Source: Lophium mytilinum
Lineage: Eukaryota; Ascomycota; Dothideomycetes; Mytilinidiales; Mytilinidiaceae
Length of the DNA stretch: 64,000 nucleotides
Assembly: GCA_010093605.1 (NCBI GenBank)
Contig: MU004197.1
Location: forward strand, 620,001 to 684,000
Direction of reading: 5' to 3'
In this document: positions 1,730 through 56,315 of the stretch, piece by piece
Layout: the number at the start of each line of letters is the position of its first letter
Position numbering within the stretch: the stretch's first letter is position 1
The notes under the pieces: model-generated
What the model was told of the DNA's origin: nothing
What the model saw: only the letters and a program-made list of their open reading frames with translations
Database searches by the model: none
Program-made: the position numbers and the translations under genes

Positions 1730-2504
1730 TTGACGTCCAGAAGAGCAATTAGAGCTTCTGATAGAATTGAGGATGGTCTGTGAAGAAAGAACAGAGAGCA
1801 GAAGACTAGAAAAGGCATGCGGTGCGGGGATGGGTGAGGTTTATCTACGTGTGGCCTCGTCCGGTACAGAAAAAGAGCTCGTGTCGAACGAACCATTGGC
1901 CGAAGGTGGGGCACACGAAGGGCTAAGCTGTTAGGGAAACCCTCGCCGGCACTGTTATCTATTCCATGCAACCATGCCGCTTATTGGCTGAGGTGTTGTT
2001 CTAAGCTGCCTGTTAATGCTTAGTGGTCAAGCCTCTTACAAGCTTGCCAAAACAAAGTTACCGCGCCATAGTGTTTGCGAGGGGCGGCTGCGCCCGAGGA
2101 GATGTTTGTCGTTGCAAGCCTTTCCGCCCTACCCGTGCGGCCCGATATTCGGAGCGCAGGGGTGGGACGAACTACTCGATCCACCATCACCATATATCAA
2201 AGAGTGGGAGGAATCCATCGCTTGACGGGAGGGGTGCCAATGGTGACACTGGCAATTGCCCAGGCTAATATCGTTGTACCGAGGTTGATCAATTCAGGCA
2301 GAGTGTAAGATGTAATAGTGTGAGCTTGGTTTGTCTTCAAACAGGCGTGAACAGGATGGATAACAACGACGTCGCTATCGAAAATCGAGCATCATGGTTC
2401 GCGTTGAAGGCTATGAAAAGCGTTCTGCCGGTCAAATATGTACAAGCAGCGCCTTCTGAAGGCTGCTGATGGTATGTATGTACTACCAGATGTGATGTAA
2501 ACGA
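1730..2504. other. intergenic, nothing recognised
   Basis: This 775-bp stretch separates the start of the phosphatase-like gene from the end of the hydrolase gene. Short open frames at 2016-2308 in three phases overlap each other, lack protein-like composition and have no splice-supported extension. I see no RNA gene or repeat. Confidence 0.5.
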
Positions 2505-3563
2505 TCAGTCCTGCTCCTGCAAGAATTCGACCACAGCTATATCAAGTCAGCATTCATAGCCCATCTTTGACCATTTGGGGACTGCAGAAGCTTCACGTAC
2601 CTCGTCTGAAAGCCTCCGGATTCTCACTGATGACCCAATGTCCGCAATCCACGTCCACCAGCTCGAATCTCGGGAAGAACCGTCCTATGATAGGCAGTGT
2701 CTCATCACTCACGTAATGACTCTTCGTACCTCTCACAAACAGCGCTGGCTTCGTGAACTGGTGCTTTTCCGGATCCGTGAAAGGGAAATCAGCCATATCA
2801 TCCAGCGAATGACCAAGAATTCGGACTGGTATACGGAATACTAGATGGTCCACAGCAGGATCGGGTGATTTGATGAGGTTGAGTAAGAGGAATTGGCGAA
2901 TGAGGAGGTCCTTCACGTACGCCTCTAAAATCTTGTCCGCCTCTTTTGGCGTCTTTACCTTTGCCTCCTCCACCTTCTGCATTCCCATAACAAACTTAGG
3001 GAAATCGCTCGTGAGTGCCGCATCCACCGGCGCATTGTCCACCGCGATGATATTTGCGCAGCTATCCGGGTTCCTCAGCGCGAGTGTCATGACTGTTTTG
3101 GCGCCCATAGAATGTCCAATTAGCGTCGCGTCTTTCAAGTTGTGCTGTTGCAGAAACCCCTCCGTGTCGTCTGCTAGGGCTGTGTATTTGTGGTTCTTGT
3201 CGTGAGGGCTATCGCCATGATTCCGCAAATCGAGCGCGTAGACAGGTCTGTTGAGATCTCTCGATAGAGCCCTAGCCACCAGACGTCAGCAGGAAGCTCT
3301 ATAGAAGCTTGATAACAGCTCAAGAAGATCTCAACGTACTTGCTCATGCTCCGATTGTTCTTCTTGCTCCCGAATAATCCATGCAGAAACACGATAGGTG
3401 CCCCGGTGGCTTTCCCGCCATTCTCGTGATAGTCGAACGCGAGGTCGAGGGCGCGTAGGGAGGCGGAAGTCTCGAACCCTCTCGAGATCTGAGGGTGTAT
3501 GCTTATCCGATTAAAATGTTTAGGGTGGAGGAGCGGCGGTATACGCCGTGGGAGCGCGTTCAT
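2505..3563 (-). CDS. IMO32: mitochondrial alpha/beta hydrolase, Imo32/ABHD11 type
   Basis: Three exons (3563..3340, 3271..2601, 2536..2505) join in phase to give 308 aa. Both introns are short (68 and 64 nt) with GTACGT donors. The last exon encodes only AVVEFLQEQD and a TGA, so the gene ends beyond the longest open frame. The N-terminus is basic and lacks acidic residues, as in a mitochondrial presequence. The oxyanion region reads FLHGLFGS, the nucleophile elbow is GHSMG, and DLRNHGDS and DCGHW supply the other conserved blocks, the last with the catalytic His. Yeast Imo32 and human ABHD11 are the closest families known to me; the related Eat1 makes ethyl acetate, so the substrate cannot be fixed from sequence. 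Confidence 0.9.
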
Positions 3564-47495: not shown

Positions 47496-49396
47496 CTATA
47501 AGGTATTTTTTCCAAGAAACTGCGCCAGTTCGTCTTGCAGCGGCAACAAGATGCCTTCCACAGCGGCTTGCAGGAAAACGGGGTCCTGGAGACTGCTCCC
47601 AGGGTCGCCGAAGCATCGCAGGCAGTGCGTGACTGCTGCGAGAAAGGCGGCGGATAAATTCTCCCTCTCGACCTCTGTCCATTCGTAGGCCATCGCACAT
47701 ATCGTCCATGGGTTGGATTGGCCGCCAGCTGGAAAAAGCTCACCTTCCTGGTATTTCTCGGCAGAGACGCCAAAGTAGAGCTCCAAGAGAGCCACTGCAA
47801 GCGCGAGAAGGATCGTATTTTTGTTATGGAAGGCGCGGCTTGGGGGTTTTCCATTTGTGATGGCCCCGTTTGAAGCTTCGTGAAAGTTCTGCGTCACATA
47901 AGGATGCTCGATATCAACTGGACGACTGCCATTCGAGATACGATGGAACACGATGTCTTTCTTGCCCCACTGGTCGTTGAACCACGGTGTTGCATTGAGT
48001 TGGAGTGTCGACGATGCGAGTGTGACAGCAAGGCTATATCTTTCTCTCTTGGTAAGTCTGGCTGGCCTTCCATTAACCACCGGTGGGTGTGTCAAGAGTT
48101 CCTCGAGTGTGATGAGCTCACGCCCACCTACTGCCTTCTCTTTGCGAGGCGTTACTGGGTAAGCTCCTCGAAGCTTACCTTTCTCATCTAGGGAAAATCC
48201 GATGCACGGGACAGTGATCTGAAACTTTTGAATGGCGGAGCAAAGGTCATCAATTTCTTGCAAACGTTTGGCGTCGGGTACCGATCCAGGTTCAGGGTCT
48301 GCGGAGTATGGCGGAGGTGGGTTGATCGTGCTGGACCAACTTACCCCTTTGCTTAACCTGGAAGTTGATGTTAGCTATCTGGAATTCCGTAATATATCGT
48401 TCATTCTGATTCTCATTCTTCTAGGAAATAACTGCGTAACTACTCACCTTGGCTTGTAAGGAGAAGGAGCCGGCGAAGATTCTACCGTCTCCTTCTGTTG
48501 GATTTGGATTTCAGCCTCCTGCCATGTCCCAGGATCGCTCGAGAAAGCCACAGTAAAGCAGAATTCTCGACTCATGTCGCCCTTTTTCATCACCACTCCC
48601 GAAGCAACTCCTGAAATGCGCTGTTCCAACTGTAGATTGGTGCAATGCGAAGACCTGCAAGAGCAATTCCATGATTGCACCAGCACTTGGTGCAGGTTCT
48701 TCGCATACGATTGTATCTTTTGTAGTCGCTTCGCGAACGAGGGTTTGGAAGCCTTCCGGAACGGCTCAAGTCTCTCGCTCCGATCCGTGAACCTCTCCAA
48801 TTCTTTGTTGCACTCGTCCAACTCCTCCAGCAGACCCTTGATATGCTTCTTGTTCATCCCAAACCGCACCCGTTTCCGAAATTCGTATTTCTGGTTTGCC
48901 TGGCGGGGATTCGCTATGAGCATTGCTTCGAGTTCATTCCTGGTAAGCTAGGAAGCATTTGCGGTCAGCGACGTTCACCCCAAGCAAGGAATGTGGAGGG
49001 CCTGCATACATTACTCGCCCGTTCTAGATCCAACTTGCTCGCGATCTTCTTCATGATCCTCTCGATATCCTGAATAGTGCCCTGGTACGCCTGATACGAC
49101 TCCGCAAGCTTCTCTTGCAGCTTCTCCGCCATAGACTCCTCCTTCCACAGCTCGCCATTTGGGTCCGCAATCATCTCTGCGAGGTCGAATTCTGTCGTTA
49201 TTGGGGCGAGTAGCAGCCGTAAGGTCTGCTCGTAGTGGACATGCTGGTTTCGCAGCTTCCGAATGAACTGGGGGAGTTCTCGTTCCCATCTTAGAAATGC
49301 CTTGACGGGATCTAGGCCGTCATTGTAGTCTTCGAGCGCTGAGATGAAGAGTGGCATTACCGCCAGGATCAGCCCGGCAACTTCGGCTCCACTCAT
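47496..49396 (-). CDS. DUF7580-type fungal protein
   Basis: Three exons (49396..49010, 48947..48448, 48357..47496) close in phase to give 582 aa. The N-terminus MSGAEVAGLILAVMPLFISAL and the helical region behind it (RWERELPQFIRKLRNQHVHYEQTL broken by loops) resemble helical HeLo-like domains found at the front of fungal signalling and cell-death proteins. The middle is charged and coiled (KRVRFGMNKKHIKGLLEELDE). The C-terminal half, from about 340, has RLTKRERYSLAVTLASS, QLNATPWFND and CAMAYEWTEVERENL, which I assign to DUF7580. The biochemical role is unknown. It is transcribed divergently from the twin-macro gene with 442 bp between starts, so the two may be co-regulated. Confidence 0.85.
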
Positions 49397-49838
49397 GGCT
49401 GGACATGCATAGCAGGTGCTCTACAGTCCGAAGCATTCCTAGGACATGGAGTAGGGAATATCATGGAGGAGAGTTTGTAAGCTTGTGGGGTGAGGGGAGA
49501 CGAGAGATGCCTCTGCGACGCTATTACCATGCGGGCTGTGTACCAGCCCCATCGACCGGGCTTCATATTCATGTCAACAATCTGGGATCTTGAGTAAGGA
49601 TAGATCAAGTTGTAATATCCATAGAACTCAAGATTAGAACTTCCAATATTGTGTAGCGCATTTAAGACCGCATGGAGAATAGAGAAATAATACCATTATT
49701 CATTCCATAACCGGCATAGCTTACCATCAAGATAGCGGAGGCCGTTTGGCGGGACAGACTTCAGCCAGTCTGCCTCGCTGGCATCAGGAAGTTTTATCAA
49801 CGAAGAAAGTCTCGCATTCATTATGTTCCCATCCGATC
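49397..49838. promoter_or_regulatory. 442-bp divergent promoter
   Basis: This gap separates the ATG of the DUF7580 gene from the ATG of the twin-macro gene. The centre (49600-49720) is AT-rich. A shared control region for both is likely from geometry, but no specific motif is proven. Confidence 0.5.
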
Positions 49839-52800
49839 ATGTCGGATATCAGATTAGGCACCGCTGCCTGTGTGCTCCAATTTCAGTCCCTCTCCAACGG
49901 CCTTCAGACCGGCGATGACGCCGCCAGGGAACATATCACCCCGGAAGCACTCGAAGACGAGCATGGCCGCTTTAGGGTCTGGTCTGGGAACCTTGGAGCC
50001 CTCCAAAAAGGTCACAGCTCCTTGGATTACCGCCTCCGCGACTCACCACTGCTGCAAACCAATATACTGAAGTTGCTCGGAGAACTCCGGGCCAATCTCT
50101 CGGAGGCTCTCGCTGTGGTTTCTGGTAGCCGCTTACCCTACGAGAAGCAAGCTAAATATGAGAGCGAAGATGACGACGATGACTGGAGCCAGAATGAGGA
50201 AGACAGCGACGAGGACGATGACGGAGGACCCCCAAAGTCCGAGCTTGAGCAAAGATTCCTCGACACCGTTGATATAATCGACAATCTGTACAAGCTTTCT
50301 GTCAGGATTCGGTCTCCAACACTTCGCTCAAGGTCCTTGAAAGCTGCGTCTTTTAGACCAACGGATCCGGACACTGGCGTCGATACCTTTGAGCAGTATG
50401 CTCTCTTCGATGAGAAGTACACGCGGGAGCTGCTTAAATATTTCCGCCAATCTACTTCGGAGGTGGAGGATCCAGCGGATGAGTATCTCGTCGAACGCTT
50501 GAGTAAAGCTATTACTCTCAGAAGGCGTCAATTCAAGTACTGGCGACGACACCGAGATAAACTTGGGGGGTCCTCTACCGCCACTGATGCTATGCTGAAG
50601 CCGGTGCCAGTAACCCCAGACTTCTTGAGTCCTCAGCCCACACCGCAGGACGGCCAAGGAGAGCAAGAGCCGGTCCAACATACACCTTTGGCACGGAGCG
50701 AATGGGCTCCACTGTCTATGCTGTCAGGTACAGAGGCTACTCAGCACCATCGCTCACTCGATGAGATAGTGGACAGTCAATCGGTGACTTCTTACGCTAC
50801 TACCACACGAGACCTGACGGGACATGGTATTGACCTTCCTCCCCCTCCCAAACAGGCAATCGAAGACCGAGATTTCGAGTGCCCTTACTGCTACATTATC
50901 TGCCCGGCTCGTTATGGCAGAGGTCGCGCTTGGAGAACACATCTCTTACAAGACCTGCAACCATATGTCTGCACCTATGAGGATTGTACAGTTGGTGATC
51001 AGCTATTCCGGAGCCGCCGGGAATGGATTGAACATGAAGCCGGACACAGAAAGCTATGGCGATGTCCAGAGCACAAGAATTCCATTTACAAATCGAAAGC
51101 CGGGCTTGAAGATCATCTCCACGCCGAACACCCAGGAACCTTTCCAGAGGACCACATCAAGAGCATCTTGAGCATTGGAGAAACAACTTCCGTTGACTTA
51201 CGCCCGAAGTGTCCCTTATGCCTAGCTAATGCAACTATGGAGGGCGGGCTGCAAAATCACATTGCGAACCACCTAGAGAGATTCGCTGCATTTGCGCTCC
51301 CCAAGGACATCGATACAGCGGACGACCATTCTGATGCAGGAAGTGGTATTGCATCACGCGGGAGAAGTGAAGCGTACAGCGGCTCGCAAGACCTCAGTGT
51401 CAGCTCTGAAGGTGTAGATCTAGTTGATTGGGGTGCGATTGAGGGAGATACTCGATCTGGCGTTTTAATATCCAAGATAGAACGACTTGCTGGCAAGGTA
51501 GAGTCTCTTGACGCACAATTACCGACCCCGAAACCAGGGAACAAGCTCTTCAGCGATCTACTTCATCGCCTTCCTGATTCCAGAGATCAGAGAATGGACA
51601 TCTTCCTGTCTTCAGGCGAACTAGACAAACCTCCTCCTCCAAGCGAGAATACGATACCAGATTTAGTTGGTTTAGATCTGGAGACAACGGGGAGAACCCG
51701 TACTGCCAGACTGAATTTTGCAAACCTACCTCAAAGCAGTAGTGATCTACAGGCAGGTCTATTGCAACAATTTCTGGAGGCGCGCCCTGGCTACCGATCG
51801 ATGTCTGGGCTGAAATTCACCGAGGATAAATGTAGCGGTCACGCAAAATTCACAAATATCACCTCCGCAACGAACGCATTGGAAGCCATAGATGGCTCTA
51901 TATTCCCAGGAGTTATTTTCAGTATAGACGAGAACGTCGGCCCTGTCACTCGCTTTGCAGAGTTGCCTACGCTGACATCCGAATCATCAGATCGAGGAGA
52001 TGATGATTCAGATTCGTTGGTCGGTATCAAGCCTCAACGACGCAACCAAGTTGAGCATGGGCCTGCCTCTGACCCTCCTAATAAAAATCTGAAGGAATCC
52101 ACGCCGCTTTCGGGAATTCCCACTCTTCAGCAACTTTACAGTGGACAAACGATTCCGCGCAATAGCCGGCGCGACCAAAACGAAGCGTTCAATAACACTG
52201 TCTGCCTTGTGTTCACAGACATAACTGTACTCCACGTCGACGCAATCGTCAACCCCGTTGGCCGCAACCTGGCCAAAGTCGGGTCGGACCTAGGTCGTCT
52301 GGTACATAAGATCGCAGGTCCAGGATTACAGAAAGAGATAGACTCTATACAACGCCTTTACTCCACAGGCGAGGTGGTGATGACGGATGCGTACAATCTT
52401 CCGTGCAAAAAGATTATTCATGCCGTTAGGCCGCATTATGCATCCACGATGGAAGAAGTCTCTCGTGGCCTTCTTACGGAATGCTATAGACGTGCTTTAG
52501 AAACGGCCGAGCAGAACCAGCTGAGGACTATTGCGTTCCCAACGCTTAGCGCCGGCGGATTCGGGTTTCCTTCGTCAAAGGCCGCGACGGTGGCCATTCG
52601 GACAGTTAGAGATTATTTGGAAAGTGGAAGGGGAGCCTTACTCGATCGGATCATCTTTTGTGTTTTCACAGAGCGAGACTGGCAGACATATTGGGATACC
52701 TTGCCGTAAGCTCATTCTAGATTTCCGTTGTCATTCCTACCGTAGAATCGTTGGCTAATATGTTTACAATAGGATTTTCTTCCCCCCCAAGTCGAAATAC

Positions 52801-55800
52801 TCCTCAATTATTTTACCCGACCAGTCAGGTATCTCTGGCAACGACAACGCTGTCAATTCAGTCGATCCTGTCTCCACAAGTACCATCAAACCGTACTTCG
52901 AGCATCGATATTCGGCGTATGTATGGGAACTGAAAGAACTGCATGAACAGATCGAAGGCGTTGCAGAAGATCTCATAGTCTTCCGCGACAAAGTACCTGA
53001 CTTCCAAGAGACTAGCATCAGAGAACTAGTCTTCATAACTTCAACACTAGCAGAGCTGGAGAAACTGTTCGAGGGGTCTTCCACTATACACAGCATGACA
53101 GAACGAAGAGCAGCAGACCTTGATCTTATCTGCTGCGTTCTACGGAACGTCGCTGGTGGTATTCATGAGATTGTCATGCAGACAACCTATACTAGGAATA
53201 TTGGTGTTCCAACGCACAAAGATATCTGGGAAGGCTACATCTTTCATCTGCAGAATACTCAGGGCCTTACGTTCGTTGAGCTTACGGAGCTTTGCGGAAA
53301 TTTCCTCCAGAGCCTCTCCGATATCCTTAAGCTGTATGCGATGCTACTCCCACACTAAAACTTGGACTAATGAGTACTTAGAAACGGAAGAGAACCCGAC
53401 GATATGAGTTTATTACGAGACAAGTTATCTCGGTATCGCCTGAATCAGTCTGGCGGAGGTGTCCAACACGTCCCTACGAAAGTATTCGACGAAGCACTAC
53501 TTGCCCGGGGATTCAGCGCCGAGGCTTGGGAGAGCAAGGAACGTCAAGCCAACCTACTCAGGGCCAGCGACATCCCTTCCTTGAGCCGCCTGTACCAACT
53601 AGGCGAATTGGACGAGAATATGCCCACGAGTCAATCACCAAGCAGTCAAGCCAATAGCACAGTCTGTCTCATCAGACACAACATTACTCGTCTCCAGGTC
53701 GATGTCATTGTCAACTCAACGGACATGGCATTCGCCGGAGTCGGTACCCTTGATCGGGCAATATTTAAGGCTGGAGGGTTGACAATGCAAGAAGACTGCT
53801 CTAAGTTTGGCATGCTCAAGGAAGGCGGCGTTCGGCTCACCCAGGGATACTTGCTTCCATGCAGGCACGTCATACACACTGTACCGCCAGAATATTTCAG
53901 CGAGAAGTCGATGTCATTGTTAGGCAAATGCTACCAGAACGCTCTCAAGATGGCAGTCGATATTGGGGCCCGGACTATCGCGTTTCCCGCCATTGGAGCA
54001 GGGGAACTTCGATACCCAAGCGAATCGGCTCAGGTCGGCATGGCGGAGGTTCGCAAATTTCTGGACGAGAATAGAATCACTAAGATCGAGAAGATTATTT
54101 TCTGCGTGTATGGAGACTATGAGGAGAATACATACAAGAAAATGCTTCCGTAAGTCTATCCTAATCACCTCCATATCTTGGACACTCCAAGTTGAGCTCC
54201 ACCATACTAGTCCAGTACAAGTTTTTGACATCATTCAGGCAATTCTTCCCTCCAATCGATCATAATGTCAACAAGGCTTTGGCCGAGATCGGCGCCGAAA
54301 GAATAGTTGAAAGGCGACTCGAATCAATTGGCAGCACCCCAATCCAAATACCCAGCAGAAACCGGAACTCTCAATATACCCTTAGACCAAGTGCAGAAGG
54401 GTCAAAAGGGCAGAAAAGCGTCAAGTTCTCACATTCTCCAAACACAACTCCGCCACGTCCACTAAACCCCGATGAGATAGAAGCTGTTGAGAGATTCGAA
54501 GCACATGCGAACAGCTGTGACCACTGCGAGGATCCAATACACGTCTACCGGACCTATGGAAGCCTCTGCGAAGACGGGAATAGTCTCGCAGAAGAGGTAG
54601 CAGAGCTTCTATTCATCGAATCAGGCGGCAATGTCTACAGTACAGCGCTGCAAAATGGCCATCGAGTCGAGCTTGACTTCCCAGATGCTTACGGAGTGAC
54701 CAAGCGCCTGCTCAGGGCGATAAACGAAAGCATACGCGAGCCGGGTAGGGGTTCCTTCGTCAAGACGTGGTATACTCCAACTCCTCAAAGCGACTCCGAA
54801 GATCTGCAATGGAAGGAGTCTCCGACAAAGGAAGACGCTCCGCCAGAGGTGTGGAGTAAAGACTGGGACTCGTTTGAAGCTGTGAACTATGGCAGCGAAC
54901 CATTACAAACGAAATATCCGTTTGCAGCAGATGCAGATACCAAAGAGGTTATAGAGAAGACGAGCGACCAGCCTACAGCTCGGGAAACCCACGCCAGGTT
55001 CTCCGATCCTCCACATGAGCAGCTCGGCGGTGTTGAGTCCCAAGCCAGCAATAGGGAAAGCATCCCATCGCGAACGCGGTCACCTCCCCCGATAGGGCCG
55101 CCATACGATCTCCAGCCTCTTCTGGAAGGCCTGATCCACGGCCGTGCTAGCAAAGAAGCTTTTGAACCCCACGCCGACAGTAGTGAAAGCTTTCCAGCCG
55201 AGCTGCTAGAGGGGCACTATTCATACACGGATCCCGCCGGGATGTATAGAGATACTATTTCCTGGCGAGGGACCAAACAGCCTACAGATCTGAAGCCTTC
55301 TGATCCCGACACTAAGAAATCCGGTTCCTTAGCAATACCCGCCCGCGGCAGCCAAAAGAGCATCTTGCGGCAACCTACCCCGAAATTCCCGGAAGACGCC
55401 AATGTGATACGAGAAGGCGCTGCTCCAGCCAAGGGCGCGGAACCCAAAGGAGTACCAGCCGGAGCCCGGTGGACCAAGATCGACCGACGTCTCGTCAACC
55501 CTGCGGCTTTGGACGAGGCAAAAGAGCGGTTCGAAGAGCGCATCGACTCCGTCGTCGTTTTACGCGTGCTGACGAAAGAGGAGATCCAAGCGCTGGCAAC
55601 TCGCACAGAGCAGATCCGTGAGTCGAGAACGGACGAGTGGCTTGAGAAGCGTCAGGAAGCAAGACGGGGTTCCTTCGACGGAGTATCCAAGCCTAGCAAA
55701 GGGCAGCGCACGCGGTTGACTACGCTTGACCGGCAACTCGTGAGTCCTGAGGCATTGAAAGAAGCTGGAGAGAACTTTGAGGAGCGTCTGGATAGCGTTG

Positions 55801-56315
55801 TTGTACGACGCGGCTTGAGCGAAGAGGAAATTGAGGAGCTTGCGGATCGGACGAGAAAACTTCGGGACGCGAGACCTGCCGCGTTCACGATCGAAGCGCC
55901 TTCGCAGCTCTCATCAGTACAGGTTTCTACAAAGCCACCTCAGCCCCAGAAACCGGATGATCCGCGGGATCATTTCATGGAAGATGGGGGCAAGAAATAC
56001 CCCGGGAAGACCGTGTCGGCAGCAGAACTCTTCGCTCTCCCCGAACTGCGCCGTAATTTTGAGGCTCCCTCTCGCTCGTCAACGGGGTCGCCGCATGTCC
56101 TACCCAGCAGCTATCTCAATCAAGTCAAGGGAGAGTATGCGGACCAGCCTGATGTTGTTGGACGCTTCCAGCAGGTGCTAAGAGATTTCCAGAGCGGGCG
56201 GATCGATTCGCCTGCTGCTTTACATGAGATCTCTAAGCTTTTTGAGGGAAAGCCGGACCTGATTCGAGGTTTCAATATTTTCTTGCCGCCTGGATACAGG
56301 ACCGAGGAGTCGTGA
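49839..56315 (+). CDS. giant twin-macro-domain protein with C2H2, RRM-like and PAH domains
   Basis: Four exons (49839..52705, 52773..53333, 53382..54149, 54239..56315) close in phase: 2090 aa. The start is MSDIRLGTAACVLQFQSL; in-frame sequence upstream has no ATG. Order: fungal N-terminal helical domain (1-230, with acidic run); C2H2-like fingers (345-485: FECPYCYIICPA, CTYEDC, CPLCLANATMEGG); RRM-like segment (620-700); macro domain 1 (785-955: VDAIVNPVGRN, IIHAVRPHY, TIAFPTLSAGGFGFP); helical linker (956-1142); macro domain 2 (1234-1398: VDVIVNSTDMA, VIHTVPPEY, TIAFPAIGAGELRYP); Cys/His motif near 1480; duplicated DUF8035-like motif (1809-1856, 1891-1942); C-terminal PAH (2019-2088: YLNQVKGEYADQPDVV, PGYR). 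Macro domains bind ADP-ribose; PAH domains bind repressor peptides as in Sin3. I infer a nuclear ADP-ribose-linked regulator. Confidence 0.85.

Follow-up and report, generated by a model that had tools for sequence, protein, structure and literature searches.

The 64,000-nucleotide stretch of Lophium mytilinum DNA analysed here (contig MU004197.1, positions 620,001 to 684,000; the window) contains a gene for a predicted 2090-residue protein with two macro domains, zinc finger-like motifs and a paired amphipathic helix (PAH) domain. The main finding lies beyond the gene itself (49839-56315), in a divergent partner gene encoding a DUF7580 protein and in a family of paralogous pairs. Both were absent from an earlier annotation of this gene (the original prediction), and they change the likely meaning of its domain order. 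The reading that we favour, to which we give close to an even chance, is a sensor/executor gene pair in which the sensor has an exchangeable tail copied from host domains, akin to the plant paired NLRs with integrated decoys. The two genes of the pair are arranged as follows.

47496-49396, reverse strand: partner gene, head-to-head with the 2090-residue gene; predicted product of 582 amino acids from exons 49396-49010, 48947-48448 and 48357-47496.
49397-49838, no strand: intergenic interval, 442 bp between the divergent start codons.
49839-56315, forward strand: the 2090-residue gene.

The 442-bp interval is presumably a shared promoter region. DUF7580 was matched with an E value of 4.9e-26 over residues 203-574 of the joined 582-residue product.

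Our analysis of the family covers one genome, that of L. mytilinum, in which the 2090-residue gene and its partner are designated P07. A genome search with exon 1 returned 22 matches at 11 finger loci, ten of which also have the N-terminal domain, recognised by eye in P02. These ten loci are spread over seven contigs: C1, C5 (two), C6, C7, C13 (two), C15 and C17 (two). The DUF7580 profile gave 18 matches in the whole genome, 17 of them above the cut-off, and a divergent DUF7580 neighbour was present at every one of the ten N-terminal/finger loci. Both partners were likewise found by tblastn on the stitched loci in 10/10 cases, P01, P02 and P03 being covered only in part; in three of the ten pairings, incomplete or weak matches were filled in by visual inspection. 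Uniform placement of the 18 DUF7580 matches would give 0.009 pairings among the 11 finger loci, an expectation that ignores unit duplication and shows a non-accidental link, not a count of independent events. The eleventh finger locus (C5:609259) was left out of the family: its similarity is confined to the fingers, and no DUF7580 match is near it.

The two halves of the pairs also share a history. Distance matrices (p-distance) of the partners from query-anchored alignments were correlated with r 0.58, a value reached in 8 of 10,000 permutations. Maximum-likelihood trees built on freshly aligned segments gave a Mantel r of 0.735 (0/10,000 permutations), and omitting P07 gave a correlation of 0.70, omitting P06 together with P07 one of 0.74 (0/10,000 each). 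Four terminal pairs, (P01,P02), (P04,P05), (P06,P07) and (P08,P10), are common to both trees, with bootstrap values of 94, 98, 100 and 100, respectively, in the DUF7580 tree and 95, 93, 80 and 83 in the finger tree. It follows from the agreement of the partner trees and matrices that most duplications were duplications of the whole pair.

Beyond the fingers, the ten copies carry different tails.

P01: NB-ARC and DUF7779, with TPR below cut-off (Pfam).
P02: a DUF6590-like piece related to P08 (tblastn).
P03: a DUF8035-like piece, no Pfam family.
P04: nothing recognised.
P05: a CRC_subunit domain of the Rsc7/Swp82 type (Pfam).
P06: a protein kinase, with a bromodomain and SH3 in subsequent open reading frames (Pfam).
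P07: macro-macro, DUF8035-like piece and PAH (the 2090-residue gene).
P08: ankyrin, with DUF6590 in a subsequent open reading frame (Pfam).
P09: ankyrin repeats in the next open reading frame (Pfam).
P10: DUF6590 (Pfam).

At seven of the ten loci (P01, P03, P05, P06, P07, P08 and P10), the fingers share one open frame with a recognised tail element; in P02 and P09 such an element is assumed to be part of the finger gene. Tail similarity was detected (tblastn, E 1e-3) in 3 of the 45 locus pairs and in none of the four sister pairs, one of which, P08/P10, has DUF6590 in both members by Pfam, the other three having no detectable tail similarity. The proteins of the sister loci P06 and P07 are similar up to the finger region (about residue 518) and unrelated beyond it. 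Some tails closely resemble other genes of the genome: that of P05 is 78% identical over 152 amino acids to C8:859723-860178, and high identity of this kind is limited to the Rsc7-type (78%) and DUF8035-like (67%) pieces. The data from this genome support the pairing of the genes, their co-inheritance and the exchange of tails.

The original prediction had considered the N-terminal domain and fingers to be shared with fungal NLR-like proteins. What stands of this is a single paralogue, P01, with NB-ARC and TPR, the TPR being below cut-off. Two further observations concern individual members. Beyond the NB-ARC member lies a 608-residue frame (L055, C1:1033000-1035600, reverse strand) that by eye resembles a HET-domain (incompatibility) protein. 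In L041 (C15:529000-535000), a finger member whose Rsc7/Swp82-type domain is 78% identical to C8:859723, the last 32 residues of the open reading frame (1945-3075) are 84% identical to a separate 118-residue frame at C15:783374.

Listing of GT/AG combinations recovered exactly the four-exon, in-phase model of 2090 amino acids that had been predicted, as a single frame with its ATG at 49839 and a stop codon ending at 56315. Its parts, all on the forward strand, are given below.

49839-52705, forward: exon 1, with the N-terminal domain, C2H2 fingers, a segment without assignment and macro domain 1.
49839-50573, forward: N-terminal domain, about residues 1-245, common to the ten-member paralogue family.
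50856-51308, forward: four C2H2-like zinc fingers, residues 340-490, Cys/His kept across paralogues.
51636-52043, forward: RRM-like segment of the original prediction, residues 600-735, RRM unsupported.
52248-52595, forward: macro domain 1 (Pfam match), MacroD-like with a degenerate catalytic motif.
52706-52772, forward: intron 1, 67 nt, GTAAGC..TAG, phase 2, site and phase as in the L001 intron.
52773-53333, forward: exon 2, a 186-residue region.
53334-53381, forward: intron 2, 48 nt, GTATGC..TAG, phase 2.
53382-54149, forward: exon 3, containing macro domain 2.
53710-54030, forward: macro domain 2 (Pfam match), within exon 3.
54150-54238, forward: intron 3, 89 nt, GTAAGT..CAG, phase 2, site and phase as in the L001 intron.
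54239-56315, forward: exon 4, with the FEAHANSC region, DUF8035-like repeats and PAH.
54330-54776, forward: FEAHANSC region, 34% identical over 149 amino acids to C10:1780735-1781190.
55461-55628 and 55707-55874, forward: two DUF8035-like repeats, a degenerate tandem with 32/56 identical residues.
56154-56285, forward: PAH domain (Pfam), closest to Sin3 PAH1.

On its own the open frame counts for little in favour of this model, because 441 GT/AG combinations keep the frame open and a 2069-residue variant at intron 2 ties with it in our crude scoring scheme. Introns 1 and 3 have external support from L001 (C1:2510k), an unlinked single-macro gene with a phase-2 intron at the homologous position, within a Pro codon of an LP|xFPP-type tail; the match extends to codon and phase, with one such intron for each macro copy. 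Intron 2, unlike these two, has no homology support, and its junction is spanned by no homologue. The model could therefore be an artefact fusing two or more genes, the first stopping at 53356-53358 in intron 2 and the second starting near 53404, and the shortness of the intron (48 nt), its GTATGC donor and the equally scoring alternative would suit such a fusion. The second gene would then begin only about 46 bp after the stop codon of the first, the donor, a CTAAT branch-like site and the acceptor of intron 2 are all in phase, and the MacroD gene L001 has its intron at the site of introns 1 and 3; we regard a fusion as quite improbable. The gene model, together with Pfam and the alignment of the fingers across paralogues, supports the prediction of one protein with two macro domains, putative fingers and a PAH. 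Retention of intron 2 would place a stop codon at 53356-53358, ahead of macro domain 2 and the PAH, and could produce a shorter alternative form.

No Pfam family matched the N-terminal domain above cut-off. The same is true of the C2H2 fingers, for which zf-C2H2_4 reached 22.0 bits against a cut-off of 27. We assigned 14 Cys/His columns in a query-anchored alignment of the ten paralogues; 13 are unchanged in all aligned rows, two of these 13 resting on eight rows, and C383 is kept in nine of the ten. Fingers 2 and 4 each have four conserved ligands and fingers 1 and 3 three each. The predicted fingers are thus putative, with conserved ligands and Pfam scores short of the cut-off. The RRM-like segment, and with it the predicted binding of nucleic acid through an RRM, found no support: no RRM was found by Pfam at E up to 10 or among the two PDB matches. 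One of these, to a photosystem I protein (E 0.0054), was discounted as a likely chance match. A single-sequence AlphaFold2 model of the segment had a mean predicted local distance difference test score (pLDDT) of 39.7, too poor for use.

The remainder of the protein is related in pieces to other genes. We use "DUF8035-like" as a provisional label only, for the region 55461-55874 and its relatives. A stretch overlapping the first repeat is 67% identical over 94 amino acids to C13:1701268-1701549 and 66% identical to P03. Such similarities link pieces of the 2090-residue gene to at least five other loci in the genome and make it a mosaic. The 186-residue region of exon 2 has no further match in the L. 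mytilinum genome. Among the relatives of the repeats, L035 (C13:1698500-1705000) has a long frame that contains numerous PDPRxxDPR-type repeats as well as an RD/RE-rich region before its DUF8035-like part. L033 (C17:1335500-1343000), a finger member with a DUF8035-like piece, contains stretches that by eye resemble a serine-protease GDSG region with Thr in place of Ser; its main open reading frame has no Pfam match.

Both macro domains match Pfam PF01661 well above its curated cut-off of 22 bits, macro 1 with E 6.2e-26 (91.1 bits) and macro 2 with E 3.9e-23 (82.1 bits), so that the profile check proposed with the original prediction for the second domain came out in its favour. The predicted VDxIVN, IIH/VIH and TIAFP motifs were seen as VDAIVN/VDVIVN, IIH/VIH and TIAFP. 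In comparisons with the PDB, MACROD1, MACROD2 and PARP14 top the lists of macro matches. The Macro profile found four matches in the whole genome, the two in the 2090-residue gene, L001 and a weaker one in L004. Macro 1, macro 2 and L001 are 37-40% identical pairwise in our alignment, and the genome search gave 43% between macro 1 and L001. L001 keeps NAAN and the GGGGVDG loop 1 and is presumably an active hydrolase, judging by these motifs. In macro 1 the corresponding sequences are NPVG and KVGSDLG, and loop 2 is G-F with its hydrophobic residue lost; in macro 2 they are NSTD and GVGTLDR (Asp kept), and loop 2 is E-L with the aromatic residue lost. Loops 1 and 2 as in L001, by which we judged a MacroD-type ADP-ribosylhydrolase, are found in neither copy. 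By these criteria, drawn from PMC10221186 and from general knowledge, both copies should be inactive as hydrolases, and reading may remain. The fold signal stays strong while the catalytic motif is lost. With most of the MacroD catalytic motif missing from both, the two copies are probably readers rather than erasers of ADP-ribose.

A writer of ADP-ribosylation is likely present, because four loci (L009-L012) match the PARP profile; for the same reason, sensing of ADP-ribose by the putative reader macros is plausible. No PARP catalytic domain was found by Pfam in the exon translations of the 2090-residue gene, which does not qualify as a macroPARP. By eye, L009 resembles a PARP fused to a ubiquitin-conjugating domain.

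The C-terminal PAH domain that had been predicted matches Pfam PF02671 with E 2.6e-10 and 40.3 bits, above the curated cut-off of 21.3. All 17 PAH matches in the PDB were Sin3-type proteins, with about 52 bits for PAH1 and about 26 for PAH2 in the three alignments shown. In the whole genome the PAH profile had four matches, three of them repeats of the Sin3 locus and the fourth in the 2090-residue gene, whose domain is 48% identical over 50 amino acids to the Sin3 PAH1 of the same genome. The protein is not a Sin3: it has one PAH only, and Pfam found no other Sin3 domain in the exon translations. The PAH domains of Sin3 bind short motifs of other factors. The earlier suggestion that the PAH contacts a corepressor is probably reversed, the PAH belonging to the corepressor Sin3 itself.

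These domains could also be those of a nuclear regulator, with macro domains reading ADP-ribosylated chromatin proteins, fingers binding DNA and the PAH gathering Sin3-binding factors; the partner would be a co-regulated neighbour, and the family members would be chromatin adaptors that differ in their readers. The PAH and macro domains, the bromodomain and Rsc7/Swp82 domain of paralogues, the four finger-like motifs and the PARP-domain loci would all fit such a role. However, the NB-ARC-TPR, ankyrin and DUF6590 tails do not point to chromatin, and neither the DUF7580 partner at ten loci with its matching tree nor the unrelated tails in sister pairs would be explained. We consider it unlikely. 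A single-gene ADP-ribose/corepressor adaptor was rejected as the whole story, as it fails to explain the partner gene, and is retained only within this alternative.

The partner begins with an MSGxEIAGLILG-type start in the seven aligned members. Full-length, it has no HeLo match at E 0.1 in Pfam, and a HeLo/MLKL reading was dropped for want of such a match, the likeness to kinases being no more than suggestive. That likeness consists of the following. All 29 matches listed for the DUF7580 profile against the PDB are kinases (23 IRAK4 and 6 B-Raf sequences), with weak E values of 0.76-0.97, and hhalign against nine kinases of the genome gave P 0.0012, a probability of 19.5% and a score of 31.6, compared with 10.9 for a reversed-kinase control. 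It is possible that DUF7580 represents a kinase-like C-lobe in degenerate form, which we offer as a lead rather than an assignment. The AlphaFold2 model of the DUF7580 exon was unusable (pLDDT 35.7).

The observed pairs could also be units of allorecognition (heterokaryon incompatibility) or selfish killer/antidote units, in which a divergent effector and its trigger or inhibitor would be harmful when separated and the tails would diversify between strains. Linked pairs inherited as units would be expected of such systems, and fungal NLR/effector and protease/gasdermin pairs are also clustered (PMC9815663). On the other hand, Pfam recognised nothing in the partner as a known toxin, HeLo, gasdermin or amyloid component (amyloid motifs were not searched), and from general knowledge tails resembling host regulators are atypical of killer systems. 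This explanation seems to us improbable.

We return to the sensor/executor pair. Two features of integrated decoys are found here, a head-to-head pair conserved as a unit and a host-like extra domain exchanged between copies. The 2090-residue gene would be the sensor half of a two-gene unit present in at least ten dispersed copies. The constant half, with its conserved N-terminal region and DUF7580, would be the executor, and the variable half would consist of the conserved N-terminal domain and four zinc fingers followed by a copy-specific tail, serving as a bait or probe built from host proteins. An attacker protein or abnormal ADP-ribosylation would engage the tail, which in the present copy could sense attackers that bind a Sin3-type PAH or alter ADP-ribosylation. 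The finger-bearing front end would then release or activate the DUF7580 partner, which would trigger a defence or cell-death response. In this scheme we infer the direction of copying, the binding of ADP-ribose, the interaction of the partners, the executor role, the sensing and the immune function.

Several results weigh against this interpretation. No HeLo or other death domain was found in any of the seven partner N-terminal regions (Pfam, E up to 1); partner exon 2 alone matched HeLo with E 0.095, below the cut-off. The link between DUF7580 and kinases is weak (E 0.76 at best; hhalign 19.5%). The protein is not an NLR or STAND protein by Pfam, with no NACHT or NB-ARC in the four exon translations. 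For eight of the 18 DUF7580 matches no finger partner was detected, and DUF7580 therefore also works outside the pair; at the one of these eight that was inspected, on C14, no finger gene was found within 6 kb. The tails are not all different, DUF6590 being common to P02, P08 and P10 and the DUF8035-like piece to P03 and P07, and most of the similarity of tails to other genes lies at 34-48%, a level that any domain family would show. Long branches were flagged for P01 with P02, and the DUF7580 row of P01 is 31% filled. In its fullest form the proposal is a non-NLR paired immune receptor system in fungi, convergent with the plant paired NLRs. A DUF7580 protein would be the executor and a zinc-finger protein, encoded head-to-head with it, the sensor; the exchangeable tails of the sensor would copy host chromatin, ADP-ribose and signalling proteins as decoys, and the macro-macro-PAH copy would guard ADP-ribosylation and Sin3. 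In this form we hold it only tentatively and think it rather less probable than its being wrong.

Whatever its function, a head-to-head pair kept through many duplications while one tail is swapped is an unusual evolutionary unit. Should the pair serve in defence, a layout of the plant type has arisen in fungi outside the classical NLRs, and surveys starting from nucleotide-binding (NB) domains would miss such pairs. The tails would then list what attackers of fungi aim at in their hosts: a Sin3-type corepressor, an Rsc7-type remodeller, ADP-ribose biology and kinases. The gene pair is undescribed in the open-access literature that we searched, and its novelty was judged on general knowledge as well. 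The same searches returned nothing on DUF7580, DUF6590, DUF8035 or DUF7779 and nothing joining "paired amphipathic helix" with "macro domain".

The macro and PAH domains of the 2090-residue protein have known counterparts. As in the MacroD-type hydrolases (L001 and human MACROD1/2), there is a macro fold with an N-terminal IPTLxxLY helix region and an intron position as in L001, but the catalytic Asn and glycine loop of L001 are not kept in the macro copies. Tandem macro domains, some without hydrolase residues, are also seen in the vertebrate macroPARPs PARP9 and PARP14 (PMC10221186); the 2090-residue protein, unlike these, has no PARP domain, and its matches rank MACROD1 as high as PARP14. 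It resembles Sin3 in its PAH1-like domain and differs in having one PAH rather than three and no other Sin3 domain.

Among fungal systems, adjacent receptor and effector genes that stay together are also found in NLR/effector clusters such as NWD2/HET-S (PMC9815663 and PMC12881547), and clustering of NLR/effector and protease/gasdermin pairs is thought to favour joint inheritance of the pathway (PMC9815663). In contrast to NWD2/HET-S-type clusters, no HeLo was detected in the DUF7580 partner (amyloid motifs were not searched). Fungal helical-bundle domains fused to a kinase or pseudokinase are described in PMC12881547. In a 2025 survey of Sordariales, head-to-head pairs made up 13 of 225 two-NLR clusters and were rare, and a plant-type organisation was judged not to have evolved there (PMC12258605). 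The same survey reports a CHK-2-type kinase as a putative integrated decoy; as in our family, a host-derived domain, kinase included, is C-terminal on a receptor-like protein. Those decoy receptors, unlike the 2090-residue protein, are NACHT NLRs, and a macro domain is not mentioned in the main text of the survey (PMC12258605).

From the plant paired NLRs the pair differs in that Pfam finds no NB domain in the 2090-residue protein or its partner, NB-ARC being present in one of the ten sensor copies, and in that the partner is a DUF7580 protein rather than an NLR. Plant pairs with integrated decoys reportedly include RPS4/RRS1, RGA4/RGA5 and Pik-1/Pik-2. Like these, the L. mytilinum genes stand head-to-head, one partner being constant and the other carrying a host-like extra domain, and the domains are swapped between related pairs.

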